From the NCBI GenBank assembly GCA_025963465.1, contig JAOQAP010000096.1, forward strand, positions 1-54,273: a stretch of DNA of 54,273 nt, written 5' to 3'. The position numbers were made by a program, and so were the translations under genes. The DNA comes from Flavipsychrobacter sp. Lineage in GTDB: Bacteria; Bacteroidota; Bacteroidia; Chitinophagales; Chitinophagaceae. Within the stretch, counting starts at the first letter, position 1. The number at the start of each line of letters is the position of its first letter. The notes under the pieces are model-generated. The model saw only the letters and a list, made by a program, of their open reading frames with translations, did not search any database and was not told the origin of the DNA. This document shows, one piece after another, positions 6,967 through 54,273 of this stretch.

Positions 6967-6975
6967 CTGACTCTT

Positions 6976-7488
6976 TTAAAGGTAGCGTTCCTTTATAATA
7001 TCCACGTGATGTGTTACATGCCCTGCAATGGCAAACCCCAATGCACGTACAGAGATAATAACATCCCTTGCCGGCCCTGTTTTATCCAGCATACTTGGAT
7101 GCATGCCTTCATACATGGCAATGGTGCACTTTCTCACCAGTTCCAGTTCATGCATCAGGCTTTCCCTTGATCGTTCTGTAGCAAATGAGTTGACAACAAA
7201 CTCATGTACACTAAACATAGGCAGCTGTGCCTGGTCACCACGCGATATGCGCATGATCCTGTAGCAGAAGTTGCGCTCGGCATCTATCAGGTGTGCCAGC
7301 ACTTCTTTTATATTCCATTTGCCGGCTTCGTATCGCAGCAAGAGTTGCTCATCACTAAGTCCTCCAACAAAAGATTCAAGTTCATTCCAATTCTCTTTCA
7401 GCGCAGTTATAAGATCGGTTTTGGGTGCTTTGGTCACATAACCATTATAGAAACCATAATCAGCCGTGGCGGGAGGTGCAATAAGCAT
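6976..7488 (-). CDS. DinB superfamily protein
   Basis: A 170-residue protein from the ATG at 7488; codons further upstream look non-coding. A four-helix bundle is suggested by amphipathic helices at about 25-50, 60-80, 105-130 and 145-168. The metal-binding His residues typical of DinB/YfiT proteins are in LAHLIDAERN and HVTHHVDIIKERY. YfiT-like members act as thiol (bacillithiol-type) transferases or metal hydrolases, but no substrate can be assigned here. There is a 143-bp gap on the upstream side. Confidence 0.8.
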   Translation of the reverse strand: MLIAPPATADYGFYNGYVTKAPKTDLITALKENWNELESFVGGLSDEQLLLRYEAGKWNIKEVLAHLIDAERNFCYRIMRISRGDQAQLPMFSVHEFVVNSFATERSRESLMHELELVRKCTIAMYEGMHPSMLDKTGPARDVIISVRALGFAIAGHVTHHVDIIKERYL

Positions 7489-7610
7489 AACATATGTTTT
7501 GCACAAAACTAAGTGATCAAAGCTTATTGCAGAAGAGTCCGGGCACAAAAAAGCCAAAACACGCAAATGTTTTGGCCAAAGTATATTATAGTTAATTACT
7601 CGCAAAGGAA

Positions 7611-7630
7611 CTCCCCTTTAGGGGTCGGGG
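7611..7630. repeat. Dispersed repeat with CCTTTAGG core
   Basis: CTCCCCTTTAGGGGTCGGGG, which can fold as CCCC-TTTA-GGGG. It matches 19 of 20 bases with the copy at 28849-28868, and a related CCTTTAGG element lies at 14991-15012. It is intergenic and non-coding. Confidence 0.7.
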
Positions 7631-7631
7631 A

Positions 7632-7901
7632 TTACGCAGTATGCTTCATTTCACTATCAGTGAAAACATTGTACTGCTCTTTAATAGCGTCATAAAATGC
7701 TTCGGCAGTAAAAAAGCTTAGCGGGTCATTTGAAACGCCATAAATATTGTTCTCAACATTGAAGTACGCAATAGCTTTATTAGGATTGGTAAATACATGC
7801 TGTCCATTTTCTATAATGTAGCCTTCTGAAATAATATTGATGTTATCCAGCTCAAATCTGTAGCCTCCGTCCTCCTGGCTTTTTATCCTGAATTGATACA
7901 T
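7632..7901 (-). CDS. Hypothetical protein, 89 residues
   Basis: A small soluble protein beginning MYQFRIKSQEDG with no signal peptide. Beta-strand-like alternation in the first 50 residues (YRFELDNINIISEGYIIENG) is followed by a helix near 65-80 (AEAFYDAIKEQYNVF). No family was recognised. The frame is open throughout, the composition resembles the neighbouring genes, and the 400-bp gene-free stretch on its upstream side can hold a promoter. It may be a monocistronic gene. Function unknown. Confidence 0.6.
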   Translation of the reverse strand: MYQFRIKSQEDGGYRFELDNINIISEGYIIENGQHVFTNPNKAIAYFNVENNIYGVSNDPLSFFTAEAFYDAIKEQYNVFTDSEMKHTA

Positions 7902-8303
7902 AGCGGGTCTTTTATATCCTACCTATTGCAAAAATCGGGCGAGAAAAGATCGGTTAAGATAAAAATGGGAATTACGATCAAGTAACCATTTGACAATACA
8001 AAAGGAATGTTAACTCAAAATATTGACGATCAATATTTTATATCATCTATACATTTTGTACTTATTATACAATAGCAATTAATAAATAAAATAAATAAAA
8101 TGTTAAATATGATTGTCTGGTAAAGAAAACTGTGGAAATGTTTCCTCAACATCCTCATGAAAACAAAACACCTGTTAATTCGCAGTTAACTGGATTTCGA
8201 TTCATTCAAACCACTAAAATCACGCTACACAGCCCACCTTAGCGACCTTTAAAACACAACACAGGAAACTGCGGTTTTGCGCCTTTGCGAGATATTTTCA
8301 GCT
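7902..8303. other. AT-rich gene-free stretch with a 23-bp palindrome
   Basis: About 400 bp with no convincing frame. At 8017-8039 there is a perfect 10-bp inverted repeat (AAAATATTGA, spacer CGA, TCAATATTTT), a possible operator or hairpin. The right end (8241-8292) is copy 1 of the TTTGCG dispersed repeat. The rest is low-complexity A/T sequence. Confidence 0.6.
8241..8292 (+). repeat. TTTGCG dispersed repeat, copy 1
   Basis: The unit runs from a CTTTAAAAC-like start through CACAGGAAACTGCGG to TTTGCGCCTTTGCGAGA. Related copies are at 18231-18282 and 24559-24611 on the same strand, and a tandem inverted pair lies at 47363-47485. All are intergenic. Confidence 0.8.
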
Positions 8304-8843
8304 CTATTGGGTATTGCTTTTAGTCCGTATGGCCTTATATATCTTAATAGCGCTCATCAGCAAAATGACAAACAAGAACAGGCCTGTTAGCCCCCATACC
8401 ACGCTAAGCCCCTGCTTCACAACGGCCAGCATCACTATAGCTATCAGGAAGATAGTAGCCACCTCGTTCCATATCCGTAGCTGACCGGACGAGTATTTGA
8501 ACACACCATTTGCCTGCTGTTTATACAGCGCGTGCAACGTAAAATGATAAGCATACAGCCCCACCACAAAACACAGTTTAATAGCCAGCCAGTTATCCAG
8601 GGTGCCATACATATACCACATCCACGGGCCAAAAATGAGCGTAAGCACTGCCGATGGCCATGTAATGCCAAACCACAACCGCCGTATCATAATATTGAAC
8701 TGTTGCTTTAGTATGGCCTTCTCAGGCTCAGCTTTTTCATTAGCTTCTGTATTGTAAATAAAAAGCCGCACGATATAGAACATACCGCTGAACCACGTTA
8801 CTATGAAAATGATGTGAAGTGCCTTTACGTATTGGTACATCAT
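8304..8843 (-). CDS. hemJ: Protoporphyrinogen IX oxidase HemJ
   Basis: A 179-residue membrane protein with about five helices. The N-terminus has the HemJ signature KALHIIFIVTWFSGMFY with its conserved His, Trp and Gly, then an R-L-x-x-Y block. LRIWNEVATIFLIAIV matches the conserved R-x-x-N-E in a later helix. The family converts protoporphyrinogen IX to protoporphyrin IX in the inner membrane. It lies 25 bp downstream of hemH, the next enzyme of haem synthesis, which supports the call. Translation may begin at either of two adjacent ATGs. Confidence 0.92.
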   Translation of the reverse strand: MMYQYVKALHIIFIVTWFSGMFYIVRLFIYNTEANEKAEPEKAILKQQFNIMIRRLWFGITWPSAVLTLIFGPWMWYMYGTLDNWLAIKLCFVVGLYAYHFTLHALYKQQANGVFKYSSGQLRIWNEVATIFLIAIVMLAVVKQGLSVVWGLTGLFLFVILLMSAIKIYKAIRTKSNTQ

Positions 8844-8868
8844 AGGTGCTGATTATTCAGAATAGGAA

Positions 8869-9885
8869 CTAATTGCCTATAAGGCCCGCCATTGCATTGA
8901 TCCATACAGGTTGCACATTCATGCACGGAATAAAGGTAAACGATTCACCACCTGCTTTCAAAAAATTCTCTTTTTCCCTGAGCCCTATCTCTTCCAGTGT
9001 CTCCAGGCAGTCACTTACAAATGACGGACAAACTACCAGTAGGTTCTTTATCCCTTCCTGTGGCATTTGCTCCATACGCAGCGTGGTAGATGGTTTCAGC
9101 CATTCCGACCTGCCCAGTTTCGACTGGAAGGAAACGCTGTATTTATCTTTCGGTATGCCAAGTAGTTCAGTCACAAGTCGCGTAGTAGCATAGCATTGGT
9201 GGCGGTAACAAAACGCATGGGCAGGGGAGTCTGTCTCACAGCAGTTTGCCGCTGCCAGGCAGTGATTGCCGGTCACGTCACTTTTTTGTATGTGCCGCTC
9301 TGGTATACTATGATAGCTGAACAGTAAGTGTCCGCCATTCATGTATGGCTTTATGCTCTCTGCCAGTGCAGTTATATACCCCGGATCGTTATAAAATGGT
9401 TTTATGATGCTGATGCTGAACGGGTACTTGCCTTTCTTATGCACAGCCTTTGCATGCTCTACCGCAGTTTCGTAGCTCGACATTGCATAGTGCGGATACA
9501 ACGGGAACAACACTACTTCTTCCAGGTCAGGGTTGGCCGCATGTATACGGTCATATGCTGCCTTCATTGTAGGGTTGCCATAGCGCATAGCTACTTCTAT
9601 CGGTTCCTTTATCTGCTGCTGTAGTTCTTTTTGTTGCTGGTAGGTTATAGATACAAGCGGCGATCCGTCTTCGCCCCATATAGCGCTATATGCCTCTGCC
9701 GATTTTGGTGCCCTGAACGGGGTAATGATACCTTTTACCAAAATGCTGCGCCACAGATAAGGAGAGTCTATTACTCTTTCATCCATAAGGAATTCCCGCA
9801 GGTAAGCCCTCACATCTTTCACCTGCACAGAATCAGGGGAGCCCAGGTTCATCAGTATTACGCCACGCTTTGTTTTACCAGCCAT
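8869..9885 (-). CDS. hemH: Ferrochelatase
   Basis: A 338-residue protein of typical length that inserts Fe2+ into protoporphyrin IX. Seen are GVILMNLGSPDS at the N-terminus, the metal-site His in FSYHSIPERH, YRHQCYATTR in the middle, SKLGRSEWLKP, and VVCPSFVSDCLETLEEI containing the conserved Glu side of the active site. It is cytoplasmic and membrane-associated. Several Cys residues cluster in the NHCLAAANCCE segment; a role in an iron-sulfur cluster is possible but not shown. It is the first gene of a hemH-hemJ unit. Confidence 0.96.
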   Translation of the reverse strand: MAGKTKRGVILMNLGSPDSVQVKDVRAYLREFLMDERVIDSPYLWRSILVKGIITPFRAPKSAEAYSAIWGEDGSPLVSITYQQQKELQQQIKEPIEVAMRYGNPTMKAAYDRIHAANPDLEEVVLFPLYPHYAMSSYETAVEHAKAVHKKGKYPFSISIIKPFYNDPGYITALAESIKPYMNGGHLLFSYHSIPERHIQKSDVTGNHCLAAANCCETDSPAHAFCYRHQCYATTRLVTELLGIPKDKYSVSFQSKLGRSEWLKPSTTLRMEQMPQEGIKNLLVVCPSFVSDCLETLEEIGLREKENFLKAGGESFTFIPCMNVQPVWINAMAGLIGN

Positions 9886-10067
9886 TATTTGAGCAAGAAG
9901 TTAATTGAGATGCAAAGAAACACAACTACATTACAATGTCAAAATAATGATTATTTAAAATGACCTCAGAATGACAGATCAGAGCAGCCTGCTAAAAATC
10001 TGGTTTAACATTTTTTTATTATTCTCAATAACGCCGTGTATCATATTTTGAACTTTCTTTGCAACAT

Positions 10068-10358
10068 ATGCGTAAGCACCTTGCAGTCATGTTTATTATC
10101 ATTTTCTCTTTCCAGGTATTACCTGTGAGAGTGCTTGGTAAGCTATTGGCAAAAGGGCAAACCGAAGAGGAAGTAAAAAACAGCGATAGCGATGATTCAG
10201 ATAACGCTGCTAAATATCTTGATTTTCTTTCCTGCAATTCTTTAAAATTTTCCTCTTCTTGCGTCACGGAAAAACCCGTTGGATTTGTGGTAAATACATC
10301 TGATGATGTACCTGCATCTTACGTCTCCGAAATTCTATCACCTCCACCAAACTGCTAA
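10068..10358 (+). CDS. Small secreted protein with an acidic Asp/Ser stretch
   Basis: A 96-residue protein from the ATG at 10068 (MRKHLAVM). The N-terminus is a signal peptide (about 1-25). It is followed by EEEVKNSDSDDSDNA, a short acidic segment, and two Cys in the middle plus a terminal Cys. No family was recognised. It lies 192 bp upstream of the SulP transporter on the same strand. An imperfect hairpin (about 10371-10397) after its stop suggests a separate transcript. Confidence 0.55.
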   Translation: MRKHLAVMFIIIFSFQVLPVRVLGKLLAKGQTEEEVKNSDSDDSDNAAKYLDFLSCNSLKFSSSCVTEKPVGFVVNTSDDVPASYVSEILSPPPNC

Positions 10359-10550
10359 TAGGGCACCGCTGTATCCGGTACTTTTTTGTACCCGGTTTTC
10401 TTAATAGGCTCCTTGCAGTCTCGTATACAGTTTTTTGCCTTCATCTCTCTCCGGTAGCTATTGCGAAAGCATCTGCTGCTCTCTGCTGCATTTAATCCGT
10501 TTCAATCACCCTGCATTGCCTTTTGGCTATGCACACAAACCTTATATCTT

Positions 10551-12233
10551 ATGGGTTCGTCATATTCATTTCAGATTTTTAAAAAAGATTTTCTTTCCGG
10601 CCTTATAGTATTTCTACTGGCCCTTCCATTATGCCTCGGCATTGCCCAGGCCTCTCATGCACCGCTGTTTGCCGGAATTGTTGCCGGTATAGTAGGTGGT
10701 ATAGTGATCGGTTTTTTTAGCGCATCCAGCCTCAGTGTCAGCGGGCCGGCTGCTGGCCTTACTGCTATTGTATTGGTAGCCGTTACTCAAATGGGCGTGT
10801 TTGAGATATTCCTTTGTTCCGTAATTATAGCAGGAGTTGTACAGCTGATATTTGGATATCTCAAGGCTGGCGCAATTGCAAACTATATTCCATCAAGCGT
10901 ATTGGAAGGTATGCTGGCTGGTATCGGACTCACCATTATCATCAAGCAGTTACCTGACGCCGTTGGCTTTGCAAAGAACAAAGGTGCCGTTATGGAAGAC
11001 GCGGATGACGGATTCTTTATGAATACAATAACAACAGCTATGCACAATGTACAACCTGCAGCCATTATCATATCGCTTATCGGGTTGCTGCTGCTGGTTC
11101 TTTGGCAGACAAAAGCGTTTAAAAAAGTGCAGCTGCTGCCTGCTGGTTTATTAGTGGTGATCCTTGGCACCCTTATAAATCTTGCATTCCAGGCAAATGT
11201 CCCTGGTATGGCGCTCGATAGCTCACACCTTGTGAAGTTACCGGTAGCAGCCACAGTAGTTGATTTTTTCAGGCAATTCTCTTTCCCCGACTTCAGGGGG
11301 TTTACCATGCCTAAAGTTTGGGAAACGGGTATAGTAATTGCCGTAGTTGCCTCTATCGAAACACTGCTTTGCGTGGAAGCGACTGACAAACTTGATCCGC
11401 TAAAAAGATATACGCCAACGGATAAGGAACTTAAGGCGCAAGGCATAGGCAATATTATCAGTGGTTTTCTTGGCGGCTTACCCATTACATCTGTCATCGT
11501 ACGTTCATCGGCAAATGTGAACGCCGGCGCAAAAACCAAAGCATCTGCGATCATACATGGTGTACTGTTGCTGGTATGCGCGGCAAGCATACCAATGTTG
11601 CTCAACATGATACCTAAAGCAGCTCTTGCCGCTATACTTATTTTTACTGGTTACAGGCTCTGCAAGCCCACAGTATTCAAGCATATGTGGCAGGGCGGAT
11701 GGACACAATTCATTCCTTTCGTTGCTACGGTAGTCGGCGTGGTGTATCTCGACCTGTTGAAAGGTGTTGGTATTGGTATCCTCATCAGCATTTTCTATAT
11801 ACTACGTCAGAACATCCGGATACCTTATTACTACCAGCGCAGCACTTATAGCAATGGGGATCTTATAAAGCTCAATCTTGCCCAGGAAGTATCTTTCCTG
11901 AATAAGGCCAGCATAAAGGAAACGCTGAACAACTTGCCAAACGGAAGTAATGTTATAATTGACGCATCGGATACTCAGTATATTGATTTCGATATTCTCG
12001 ATCTCATTAATGAGTTCTACCATACCCGCGCCGCTGAAAAACAGATCAATATGTCATTAATAGGTTTCAGGCACGCATACAAATTACCCGATGCAGCAAA
12101 AGAACGGGACCTCGTCTACGAAATGATTAATAAAGATGAAGTCCCCAAACGGTCGGCAGGAAGCTATAAAAAACTACTTAAACAGTTACAAGATAACTTA
12201 AATAATTCACCGCTTAAAAAACCTTCGCTATGA
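10551..12233 (+). CDS. SulP family anion (probably bicarbonate) transporter with STAS domain
   Basis: A 560-residue protein from the ATG at 10551; the longer upstream frame is not needed, because the family starts shortly before the KKDFLSGLIVFLLALP block. SulP hallmarks are LPLCLGIAQASHAPLFAGI, the SVSGPAAGLTAI segment in helix 3, and SVIVRSSANVNAGAKTK in the later core. About 12-14 helices fill residues 15-420. The C-terminal STAS domain (about 430-550) contains VIIDASDTQYIDFDILDLI. The stop overlaps the start of a beta-carbonic anhydrase by 4 bp (ATGA), which argues for bicarbonate as substrate rather than sulfate. Substrate assignment is inferred. Confidence 0.9.
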   Translation: MGSSYSFQIFKKDFLSGLIVFLLALPLCLGIAQASHAPLFAGIVAGIVGGIVIGFFSASSLSVSGPAAGLTAIVLVAVTQMGVFEIFLCSVIIAGVVQLIFGYLKAGAIANYIPSSVLEGMLAGIGLTIIIKQLPDAVGFAKNKGAVMEDADDGFFMNTITTAMHNVQPAAIIISLIGLLLLVLWQTKAFKKVQLLPAGLLVVILGTLINLAFQANVPGMALDSSHLVKLPVAATVVDFFRQFSFPDFRGFTMPKVWETGIVIAVVASIETLLCVEATDKLDPLKRYTPTDKELKAQGIGNIISGFLGGLPITSVIVRSSANVNAGAKTKASAIIHGVLLLVCAASIPMLLNMIPKAALAAILIFTGYRLCKPTVFKHMWQGGWTQFIPFVATVVGVVYLDLLKGVGIGILISIFYILRQNIRIPYYYQRSTYSNGDLIKLNLAQEVSFLNKASIKETLNNLPNGSNVIIDASDTQYIDFDILDLINEFYHTRAAEKQINMSLIGFRHAYKLPDAAKERDLVYEMINKDEVPKRSAGSYKKLLKQLQDNLNNSPLKKPSL

Positions 12234-47721: not shown

Positions 47722-47795
47722 GGCGAGGTAGCTCAGGTGGTTAGAGCACAGGATTCATAACCCTGAGGTCGGGAGTTCAAGTCTCCTCCTCGCTA
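47722..47795 (+). tRNA. tRNA-Met (anticodon CAT), elongator type
   Basis: A 74-nt cloverleaf. The acceptor GGCGAGG pairs with CCTCGCT (one G-U). The anticodon loop TTCATAA gives CAT. The anticodon stem is CAGGA/CCCTG, not the three G-C pairs of an initiator, so this is the elongator form. The T arm is GGGAG/CTCCT with TTCAAGT. No CCA is encoded and the discriminator is A. It is immediately followed by a terminator and the AT-rich region, so it is a potential integration site. Confidence 0.93.
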
Positions 47796-47801
47796 CTCAG
47801 T

Positions 47802-47874: not shown

Positions 47875-48387
47875 TTATATTGCCACTACTATAGGTAGGC
47901 CTTCGGTAGCATTTATTCTATAAACCTCCAGCTGTATAAGCTCTACCATTTTATTTATCCGAGCTTTCCATTCTATACTTTCTTTGAAATTCTCACCATA
48001 TATCTGCCATATTCTCTCGTCCAATAAGCATTCTCCGAATTGCATTAATTCGTTTCTTGTATCATGTCCGTCCCTTTTTTCAAAAGATCGCATTGCGACA
48101 ATGGCATAGTCAATTTTTATTTGAAATTTGAAACACAGTTCGAATAATACAGTAATGGTAATTCCTTGTTCTGTGGGTGCTCCAGCAACAATTAGTATCA
48201 TTTTACCGTTTACTTCAATAAGGTATGTCCCATTATCAATAATAATTGTATTATTAACGTCCTCAAATCTTTTTCGATCCGGATAGTTTAAACGTTTAAT
48301 CGCTGTGGGGTTTAACTTCTTACAAATAGCATCTATTGTAGTTGATTTACCAGCATCTTTCGTGCCGACTATTAAAATATATTTCAT
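47875..48387 (-). CDS. P-loop NTPase of unknown family
   Basis: A 170-residue protein. Walker A is GTKDAGKST (residues 8-16). It is followed by a strand-loop MILIVAGAPTEQG (about 63-75) where an acidic Walker B residue is not obvious, and DYAIVAMRSFEKRDGHDTRN. It looks like a small GTPase/NTPase core without added domains and is cytosolic. It is divergently transcribed from the nuclease-vWA gene, with 76 bp between the starts; TAACTTTG 6 bp before its start suggests a nearly leaderless mRNA. The gene is visibly more AT-rich than the genes left of the tRNA. Confidence 0.65.
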   Translation of the reverse strand: MKYILIVGTKDAGKSTTIDAICKKLNPTAIKRLNYPDRKRFEDVNNTIIIDNGTYLIEVNGKMILIVAGAPTEQGITITVLFELCFKFQIKIDYAIVAMRSFEKRDGHDTRNELMQFGECLLDERIWQIYGENFKESIEWKARINKMVELIQLEVYRINATEGLPIVVAI

Positions 48388-48463
48388 GATAGCAAAGTTA
48401 TTGTAATTTGGAATCTATATATACGAATTCCATTAAAATATCAGCGCAAATTATTTGAGTAAA

Positions 48464-50194
48464 ATGGAAAATACTATTATAGAAACAGCGGCCGAATTAT
48501 ATAGAGAAATGAAGAATCGGGGGATGGAAATCGGAAAGCGAGATGATCGTAGGGACGATGGTTTAATCAAGGATTTGCGACATCGCTTAAATTGCCCGGA
48601 TGATAAACTCGCATCTTTTTTAAAGGAAAAGAATATTTCAGCAAAACAATTTCTTATTGAATTCTTGAATATTGCCAAGCCATTTTCTTTGATGTTTGAA
48701 GAAATATGGAGATTCTTATCGAAACATTACGCTCCGAAAGCGGCTGAAACTGTTTCCATTCGGTTCGGTTTTTCTGATACACATGATTCAGTATCTATTG
48801 ACCTAGAAGAATTCAGGCGGCAGGCTAACTCATTAAAATTAATTAACTCAATAACCCAACGCACCATTTGGTCTGAGGAGGCACTTAGTAAGCTTTTTAA
48901 ATTAGCGGAAATACTAGTAGGTGATAGTAAGCAAGAGAGAAATACAGGATATATACCTGGCGAAGATTTACAGTTACCAACAATTCAACCTATGTCAAAC
49001 GCAATTGACGGGATAGTGGGTGATGTTCGCAATCTGTTTCAAAAAATTATAGATGCGTATTATATCGAGGTTGAGGAAAATAACGATAGTACACCGAATA
49101 CAAAATCCAAGCATTTGGCAATGAGATTGACCGATTTTATTCCGAATTGGCATTTAGTATTCTCAACTATATCAAGGATATCTGAGGACAATAAAAATGA
49201 TGCATACGCGTATTACATGAGAGAAATAGAACCTCTTTTGTCTTTCGAGAATACACTAACTCAAAAAGAAATAAAGGAGGCACTCGACATACTGGACTTG
49301 CCTTTTTGGAAGCATAGATGGCATACCTATGAAATTTGGTGTACAGTTGCCATATTAAGTGCTTTAGAAGAATTTAATCCTGTTCCCTTGGTAGTGGATG
49401 GGCAAATTCCACTTGATGGTTATTCAGCGGAAATCATTGCTTATTTTGAAGCATCTTCTTTTCCCAAGTCATGTGTGACAATTCAAGTGCAGACACCAGT
49501 TGAAAATGGGGATAGAAAAGGCATGAAACCTGATTTACGGATTTGCTTCTCTGATGAGATTTCTGATATAAACAATACTGCCGCAGTCGTTGAGTTTAAA
49601 CAGCGAGGTTCTATTACTAAGGCTCATATTGAAGAGGTGCTGACATCCTATGTTGTCGGAACGCCAAGGAGCGGTGGTACCATCATCATAAATTACGATA
49701 AGACTGATGTTGTGCCGGCACAAATTTCTAATGGCTATTATTTTGAGGGGGTACACCCTGGCAATCCAAACGAGGTGAGTCTCCTAAAAATAACCTTACA
49801 AAAAATTCTTGAATCAGTAGAATTTAAAAGAAATAAAAATAACGTTGTCTTGTTCGATATATCATCAAGTATGGAGCGCCTGTATGACAAACAAATCGTT
49901 CGAAATTCGTTAAAATTATTTTTTCATGCGAAAGGCTTTCAAATTTATTTCTTTAATGATGAATTAGTCGAAATGGATATCTCGTTGAACTATGAAAATA
50001 TAGAAACTTCTGGTTCTACAAACTTAGAAATGGCTCTAAATCAGTTATTGAACAAGGTAGGGAACATAAACCGCCTCTTAATTATCAGTGATGGTGACTA
50101 TTCTATACCTAAGAAGATTTTAGATTCGATACCGGCTGTTGAAGAATGTTATCCGGAGCACATGGCAGAATATTTAAGGTGGGTTGCTGAATAG
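48464..50194 (+). CDS. PD-(D/E)XK nuclease-like and von Willebrand A domain fusion
   Basis: A 576-residue protein from the ATG at 48464; a TTG 9 bp upstream is possible. Residues 1-280 are helical and unrecognised. About 285-440 looks like a restriction-nuclease-like fold: a helix with YEIWCTVAIL, GMKPDLRICF (PD at about 356-357) and AVVEFKQRG (E-F-K at about 377-379). The C-terminal vWA domain (about 460-550) has all metal-site parts: DISSS (DxSxS), SGSTNLEMAL with the Thr, and IISDGD with the Asp. The combination was not recognised as a described system. Confidence 0.7.
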   Translation: MENTIIETAAELYREMKNRGMEIGKRDDRRDDGLIKDLRHRLNCPDDKLASFLKEKNISAKQFLIEFLNIAKPFSLMFEEIWRFLSKHYAPKAAETVSIRFGFSDTHDSVSIDLEEFRRQANSLKLINSITQRTIWSEEALSKLFKLAEILVGDSKQERNTGYIPGEDLQLPTIQPMSNAIDGIVGDVRNLFQKIIDAYYIEVEENNDSTPNTKSKHLAMRLTDFIPNWHLVFSTISRISEDNKNDAYAYYMREIEPLLSFENTLTQKEIKEALDILDLPFWKHRWHTYEIWCTVAILSALEEFNPVPLVVDGQIPLDGYSAEIIAYFEASSFPKSCVTIQVQTPVENGDRKGMKPDLRICFSDEISDINNTAAVVEFKQRGSITKAHIEEVLTSYVVGTPRSGGTIIINYDKTDVVPAQISNGYYFEGVHPGNPNEVSLLKITLQKILESVEFKRNKNNVVLFDISSSMERLYDKQIVRNSLKLFFHAKGFQIYFFNDELVEMDISLNYENIETSGSTNLEMALNQLLNKVGNINRLLIISDGDYSIPKKILDSIPAVEECYPEHMAEYLRWVAE

Positions 50195-53418: not shown

Positions 53419-53688
53419 ATGGAAGTAATCTGCCTAGAAGATAATGCCTTTTATTCCCTTGTTGAACAGGTATTCGAACGTTTAAAAGATAAAGAAAAAA
53501 CGAAGGAAGATAAATGGATTTCCGGCGAGGAGGCAATGTTAAAGCTACGCATTAATAGTAAAACAACTTTGCAGAAATTACGTAATGAAGGCAAAGTCCG
53601 TTTTTCGCAACCTGAGAAGAAACATATTGTTTACGATCTCGCTTCTATCTACGAATATCTTGAGAAGCATGCAAAAAACACCTTTTAA
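53419..53688 (+). CDS. Excisionase-like helix-turn-helix protein
   Basis: An 89-residue protein with the HTH_17-like core WISGEEAMLKLRINSKTTLQ then KLRNEGKVRFSQPEKKHIVY and a final EYLEKHAKN. Such small proteins are common in Bacteroidota integrative elements and plasmids, as excisionase or regulatory DNA-binding proteins. It is divergent from the island membrane-protein gene, with a 128-bp AT-rich gap, and is followed 2 bp later by another small gene. Confidence 0.8.
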   Translation: MEVICLEDNAFYSLVEQVFERLKDKEKTKEDKWISGEEAMLKLRINSKTTLQKLRNEGKVRFSQPEKKHIVYDLASIYEYLEKHAKNTF

Positions 53689-53690
53689 TT

Positions 53691-53927
53691 ATGAGTATAG
53701 AGGAGCAACAATATATAAAGGGGTTTAATCATGGTTATCTTTTGACCAAGCATTTACCAGATTTAGTTTTAAAGCTTGTAAAAGGTATTACGGGAAAAAC
53801 AGGTGATTATTTCGCTGGGTTCTTTTCCGGGAAAGAAGAATGCGAAATGGAACATACTAAGGACCAATTGGCGGAATTTGATGCAATCAGGAACCAACAA
53901 ATAGATAAAGAACGCGAGATTGAATAA
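53691..53927 (+). CDS. Small hypothetical island protein
   Basis: A 78-residue helical protein starting 2 bp after the HTH gene. It has an N-terminal FNHGYLLTKHLPDLVLKLVK, a KTGDYFAGFFSGKEE turn and a charged end (EFDAIRNQQIDKEREIE). No family recognised. It is likely co-transcribed with the HTH gene. Confidence 0.65.
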   Translation: MSIEEQQYIKGFNHGYLLTKHLPDLVLKLVKGITGKTGDYFAGFFSGKEECEMEHTKDQLAEFDAIRNQQIDKEREIE

Positions 53928-53981: not shown

Positions 53982-54273
53982 ATGACTGTATTCAACACCG
54001 GATTAAACGAATTTACTCGCAAGTATTTAGTAAAACATCCTGGGGTTGATGAAAGTCCTCTTGTCCTATCCTTTAATTCCGAGTACAAACGGGCACTATC
54101 TGAATTGATTGAGCAGTTTGTGTTCTTTGATAAGGTGTCTATAAAGGTATACGGAGAAAATATTGGGCTGGTCGTATTAATAAATGAATTAGGATTAAAA
54201 CAAGTCCTTGATCTAATTGAGGAAGGTGTTATTGAATTTTTATTATGGACGCCGACACTCACGGCATTGAGCA
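53982..54273 (+). CDS. Unknown protein, cut by the window end
   Basis: The frame opens at ATG 53982 and is still open at the last base (97 codons visible). It starts MTVFNTGLNEFTRKYLVKHP and continues with ELIEQFVFFDKVSIKVYGEN and VVLINELGLKQVLDLIEEGV. No signal peptide and no family recognised. It follows the small gene by 54 bp in the same direction, consistent with one transcript. Confidence 0.65.
   Translation, partial: MTVFNTGLNEFTRKYLVKHPGVDESPLVLSFNSEYKRALSELIEQFVFFDKVSIKVYGENIGLVVLINELGLKQVLDLIEEGVIEFLLWTPTLTALS

Follow-up and report, generated by a model that had tools for sequence, protein, structure and literature searches.

With Mg, PD-(D/E)xK domains cleave nucleic acid, and nucleases of the McrC/PDDEXK_7 type elsewhere depend on an AAA+ or helicase partner as their motor. 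In vWA domains, the MIDAS site binds a protein ligand through one of the ligand's acidic side chains. Metal sites of vWA domains bind peptide or protein ligands (PMC7159879), and in the MoxR-vWA ternary systems (VMAP) described in the same source the effectors lie C-terminal to the vWA domain and a MoxR AAA+ partner is a core component. Contig C56 of Flavipsychrobacter sp., from an assembly of 277 contigs, encodes a 576-aa protein with both domain types in a single chain; the window, that is, the whole stretch of DNA that was analysed (54,273 nt), corresponds to this entire contig.

Each of the closest described systems shares some traits with this protein and departs from it in others. Like PDDEXK_7 (PF04411, DUF2357-type) and McrC (PF10117) proteins, it has a YExW-type helix before the core, followed by PD and (D/E)xK on successive strands, both motifs being in register in the alignment; in contrast to them, it carries a C-terminal vWA domain and reaches no Pfam nuclease cut-off, and no McrB AAA+ GTPase partner exceeded the cut-off among the five window neighbours scanned. 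The MoxR-vWA systems as portrayed in PMC7159879 likewise combine within a single polypeptide a MIDAS-bearing vWA domain with nuclease effectors, some of them of the REase fold, yet the effector order is opposite here, with the nuclease (residues 262–450) N-terminal to the vWA domain (451–560), and the window showed no recognisable MoxR AAA+ partner. TerY-P triads (vWA, PP2C, kinase), as described in PMC11090510, resemble it in their MIDAS-bearing vWA domain and restriction-type linkage but differ in that here the vWA domain is fused to a nuclease; neither a PP2C phosphatase nor a kinase was found among the five scanned neighbours. Helicase and methylase genes of the ARMADA/DISARM/Dpd/Druantia type (PMC12458937) lie upstream of two relatives, whereas most loci of the family lack them, and the term vWA is absent from the main text of that ARMADA paper. 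The vWA region also bears a weak profile likeness to TROVE/Ro60-type vWA domains (E 0.04, over residues 443–556 with an eight-row family profile), although no TROVE RNA-binding domain was recognised and a nuclease is fused instead. In the openly licensed literature searched, no description of a PD-(D/E)xK–vWA fusion or of a system of such architecture was found, in agreement with the initial annotation, which had not known the nuclease-then-vWA order as a family.

The locus comprises the following features (evidence in brackets):

47722–47796 (+): tRNA-Met, edge of the AT-rich island (tRNA position and G+C drop)
47875–48387 (–): 170-aa P-loop protein with Walker A motif GTKDAGKST, a neighbour whose partnership is without support (AAA_29 match at E 1.2e-4, below cut-off)
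48464–50194 (+): 576-aa nuclease–vWA protein, whole gene including stop (ORF, nine relatives, eight-row alignment A3)
48464–49246 (+): residues 1–261, N-terminal region, no known domain (helix-rich prediction at low confidence; fewer conserved positions in A3)
49247–49813 (+): residues 262–450, PD-(D/E)xK nuclease-like core (invariance in 8/8; profile alignment with PDDEXK_7 and McrC)
49814–50143 (+): residues 451–560, vWA domain with D465, S467, S469, T519 and D543 (weak profile matches and conservation)

An ORF check reproduced the gene positions, strands and protein length given by the initial annotation: the P-loop gene and the 576-aa gene, which starts with ATG at 48464, diverge across a gap of 76 bp. 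The AT-rich region that it had placed behind a tRNA was also borne out, with G+C (2-kb windows) falling from ~0.44 to 0.33–0.36 from 48 kb onward. No second copy of the tRNA-Met 3′ end was detected in the assembly or the window (for shorter cores, the genome was not covered), and the island is cut at 54273 because the window comprises the whole contig. Neither the 576-aa protein nor its neighbours passed a naming cut-off in Pfam, NCBIfam or PADLOC. PADLOC comes with no printed cut-off; at E 1e-4 none of the five window neighbours matched (0/5; best E 0.0037). No curated family in the three collections covers the 576-aa protein, nor did any of their vWA or nuclease models match it.

The presumptive nuclease core is marked by an LPxWxxRxxxYxxW helix (279–292), P356-D357, E377-F-K379 and N410-Y411, and the P-D...(D/E)-x-K set that defines the PD-(D/E)xK superfamily is present in 8/8 aligned members. 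For profile comparison, PDDEXK_7 and McrC proteins were taken from related genomes, and four and 12 of them, respectively, were aligned: 4/6 PDDEXK_7 places were used, leaving out L020 (inner stop) and L024 (partial), and 12/17 McrC places, leaving out L033 (inner stop) and L037, L038, L040 and L041 (partial or weak). When the family profile was built from five rows, the score of the nuclease segment was 28.9 for PDDEXK_7, where 100 column shuffles reached at most 22.5, and 29.4 for McrC, where they reached at most 24.5. Eight rows gave 37.7 for PDDEXK_7 (maximum of 150 shuffles, 23.3), the alignment running from the YExW helix through PD, and 26.8 for McrC, a small margin over the maximum of 150 shuffles (23.6), with both PD and ExK falling in register. 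Scores for the vWA and N-terminal segments stayed at 11–16 in these tests. HHalign's own probabilities were low (40% for PDDEXK_7, 6% for McrC), and forced global alignments with either family scored poorly. Neither PF04411 nor PF10117 was matched over its curated cut-off, so that the resemblance is of the profile–profile kind only, and G000 gave no match to either model; among the window protein and its relatives, none exceeded a Pfam nuclease cut-off, while one rhizobial member matched RE_endonuc over the motif (E 0.11). On the motif and this weak profile evidence, residues 262–450 appear to form a PD-(D/E)xK nuclease of the general McrC/PDDEXK_7 kind, with membership of either family unproven.

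Independent but weak support was obtained for the C-terminal vWA domain that had been proposed. In addition to the TROVE match, two Pedobacter relatives gave sub-threshold matches to the Pfam model VWA_CoxE (E 2.9e-4 and 6.1e-4), and the family profile matched ITIH1 over its vWA region (E 0.0033 with five rows, E 0.4 with eight). NCBI annotates the Lysinibacillus member as a vWA domain-containing protein. The metal site (DxSxS, T, D) is complete in the window protein and four other members, with T519 lost in 3/8. The nuclease-then-vWA fusion is thereby supported. AlphaFold models from two runs with three alignment rows were too low in confidence for use (mean pLDDT 47.8 and 39.1), and a check for the alpha-beta-beta-beta-alpha-beta core was made on these same models, with pLDDT only 39–48. 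No sign of a fold other than a nuclease emerged for residues 285–440, although models this weak could have missed one.

Nine relatives of the 576-aa protein were found, seven of them full-length: two in Pedobacter, one in G155 (same phylum), one on a Lysinibacillus plasmid and five on rhizobial plasmids. The Pedobacter proteins come from genome contigs, that of G155 from a phylum draw and the remainder from plasmid records, with the five rhizobial records found using the G155 protein as query. Identity to the window protein is ~46% for Pedobacter and 26.5% for Lysinibacillus, and ranges from 46 down to 16% across alignment A3, which contains the window protein and the seven full-length relatives. 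The Neorhizobium petrolearium and Sinorhizobium medicae records (L043 and L046) encode the C-terminal part only, each beside IS66 genes, and were left out of the alignment. W282, R285, Y289, W292, P356, D357, E377, K379, N410, Y411, D465, S467, S469 and D543 are invariant in 8/8 rows, while T519 and G517 are kept in 5/8 and both lost in the three rhizobial full-length proteins. The PD...EFK and DxSxS/T/D sets that the initial annotation had called intact are thus all present in the window protein and, except for T519, invariant; relatives belonging to three phyla retain both sets. This invariance places the nuclease and metal-site residues under constraint, which is looser for the MIDAS threonine.

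The family is thinly spread. A profile search of 119 related genomes returned the window's own copy only; full-length members occurred in 2/395 genomes of the phylum draw (the window's and G155, with the matches in G198, G093 and G152 covering the vWA part only and left out as members) and in 2/301 genomes of a Pedobacter family draw, both already in the set. Members were carried by 6/72,556 plasmid records, two of the six partial. Two family queries had no match in a phage collection, and no relative was found in the viral contigs scanned with family queries. This thin, far-flung spread, together with the IS-truncated copies, is consistent with mobile defence cargo; the same thin spread is expected of any rarely kept accessory gene.

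The initial annotation had joined the 576-aa protein and the P-loop protein into one two-gene system, in which the divergent NTPase would power or control the nuclease–vWA protein. Beyond the short distance between the two adjacent, divergent genes, this proposal could draw on the P-loop motif being kept in the neighbour's single relative (G420, same genus, 51% identity). The P-loop protein matches AAA_29 and other models below their cut-offs, and no MoxR model matched it in Pfam and NCBIfam scans. It is present in 2/119 related genomes, the window's own included, absent from the other 295 genomes of a phylum draw of 296, and without relatives in plasmids, phages or viral contigs. Nor was it found at any other fetched locus of the nuclease–vWA family or in the genomes or records of the four family carriers searched whole, while the G420 contig, on which the P-loop gene lies ~190 bases from the end with the sequence beyond unseen, gave no nuclease–vWA match. 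As the P-loop gene occurs at no other fetched family locus and its relative's contig has no nuclease match, the pair is not conserved. The pairing was therefore rejected; by the criterion that the initial annotation itself had set, namely that the two genes never co-occur, it is refuted as far as present data go, and we regard a functional NTPase pair as very improbable. The P-loop gene next door is more likely common cargo of the island.

Further genes of the AT-rich end deserve mention in their own right. A membrane-protein gene (P4, 52154–53314, –) and then a 643-aa gene (P3, 50223–52151, –) form a two-gene unit, and for neither member did any family in Pfam, NCBIfam or PADLOC pass a cut-off. 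The unit recurs in G424 (L053, 5478–8572) and G433 (L054, 5751–8812) without the nuclease–vWA gene, and in L053 adjoins a Shedu (SduA) gene, a DpdB-like gene and an integrase-like gene. P4–P3 is a candidate defence pair, but was rejected as partner of the nuclease–vWA gene because it occurs in these two genomes without the nuclease family. At the contig end lie two small genes (53419–53927, +), the first of which is HTH_17-like (E 1.9e-5, just under the cut-off). Since small HTH genes of a similar kind accompany mobilisation-like genes in the Pedobacter locus L004, the window island is possibly an integrative or mobilisable element that the end of the contig truncates.

The neighbourhoods of the relatives bear on function. 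They include ietAS, a Druantia/DISARM-type helicase and methylase, type III CRISPR, Argonaute, TIR and Dsr1 genes, and 20/23 scanned neighbours of relatives (9/10, 9/10 and 2/3 by batch) matched PADLOC models at E ≤1e-4, a proportion biased upward as the neighbours were hand-picked and the PADLOC helicase and ATPase models are broad; at E 1e-4, 0/10 ordinary window proteins matched. The suggestion of a defence or conflict island thus gained support from the relatives, which sit in defence islands, while the window's own neighbours scored 0/5.

In Pedobacter, a 4.1-kb block (6967–11031 in both L003 and L004, 76.5% identity) is the only DNA common to the two 17.7-kb loci and contains a gene for a 238-aa protein, the nuclease–vWA gene and a convergent PLD-like gene, i.e. 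a possible three-gene cassette. One of the loci additionally has a ThsB-type TIR gene, the other mobilisation-like genes (by eye). That these three genes form the true system, of which all other copies would be partial, fits the block holding just them; no 238-aa or Pedobacter-type PLD match was found at the other family loci, however, and we consider this quite improbable. PLD-like proteins near the nuclease–vWA genes of Pedobacter, pRlX4 and CCGE531 show no detectable kinship by BLASTP, so that PLD was rejected as common partner and the family is left without a constant one.

On the Lysinibacillus plasmid, an HNH gene lies upstream and a GIY-YIG/Schlafen-type helicase gene downstream of the nuclease–vWA gene, followed farther on, by annotation, by nucleotidyltransferase, E2 and Mov34 genes. 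In Rhizobium CCGE531, ietA and ietS lie upstream and a Dsr1-type SIR2 gene and a pAgo_I match downstream; in pNGR234a, S8 peptidase and SIR2 genes are annotated in the corresponding upstream and downstream places. The G155 locus has, in order, a SNF2-type helicase (family assigned solely by similarity to the pRlX4 gene), a DrmMI/type IIG-like methylase, a metallo-beta-lactamase-like protein and the nuclease–vWA protein, and then Cmr1-, Cmr6- and Cas10-like genes. We also noticed in G155 a Cmr1/RAMP-like protein (L009, 11104–12366) with an inserted PDZ domain (PDZ_2, E 9.5e-10), which is unusual for a type III CRISPR subunit.

In Rhizobium leguminosarum pRlX4, genes for a DruE-like helicase with an MrfA zinc-binding domain, a DpdE/DrmD-like helicase, a methylase (known by similarity to the G155 methylase, not from a family scan), an LmuB-like ATPase, an HNH protein, a 264-aa protein and the nuclease–vWA protein follow one another in one direction, with DrmC-like PLD, IetS and IetA genes convergent to the last. 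The run (L047, 5284–17001, and L042, 27–9975) looks ARMADA-type with extra nucleases. Upstream of the nuclease–vWA gene in both pRlX4 and G155 are related SNF2 helicases (37% identity) and methylases (39% over 1133 aa), and because of this common context some members are suggested to serve restriction-like complexes of the DISARM/Dpd/ARMADA kind as accessory nuclease. Extended to the family as a whole, with the window copy as an orphan, this role would fit the shared gene direction in pRlX4 and G155 and the DruE-like helicase heading the pRlX4 run. Set against this, only 2/9 relatives have the helicase–methylase context, no such genes were recognised in the window or the fetched Pedobacter and Lysinibacillus stretches, and the main text of the ARMADA paper does not mention vWA; we thus deem it rather unlikely.

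A role outside defence, in DNA repair or mobile-element upkeep such as plasmid exclusion or stability, would suit a family in which rhizobial plasmids carry 5/9 relatives and a plasmid of Lysinibacillus one more, and ietAS genes were themselves first described in plasmid incompatibility. Yet defence genes dominate the scanned neighbours, and such a role seems improbable.

As the relatives lie among phage-defence genes, the 576-aa protein is probably a defence nuclease. We consider it reasonably likely that it represents an undescribed defence-associated nuclease family, in which a nuclease of McrC/PDDEXK_7 type would be recruited or gated by the vWA domain and the neighbours vary. Judged from these neighbourhoods, the gene seems to be a one-gene module that would act in phage defence. 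Residues 262–450 would adopt a PD-(D/E)xK fold and cut nucleic acid, and the vWA metal site most likely holds, in MIDAS fashion, an acidic side chain of a putative protein ligand. Through it, perhaps with the helical N-terminus, the vWA domain may recognise either a protein of the phage or one subunit of an adjacent defence complex, and this recognition could place or unlock the nuclease on invader nucleic acid. More tentatively, and with considerable doubt, one might picture a motor-free McrC: a nuclease controlled by its own vWA domain, which would sense a phage or partner protein via the metal site, the whole being a horizontally spread one-protein immune sensor–effector.

The idea lends itself to direct testing through the invariant residues, of which four in the nuclease and four in the metal site can be mutated. 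If it is true, prokaryotic immunity would gain a so far unnamed nuclease family, in which a vWA domain would switch on or aim the nuclease with no MoxR-type motor involved.
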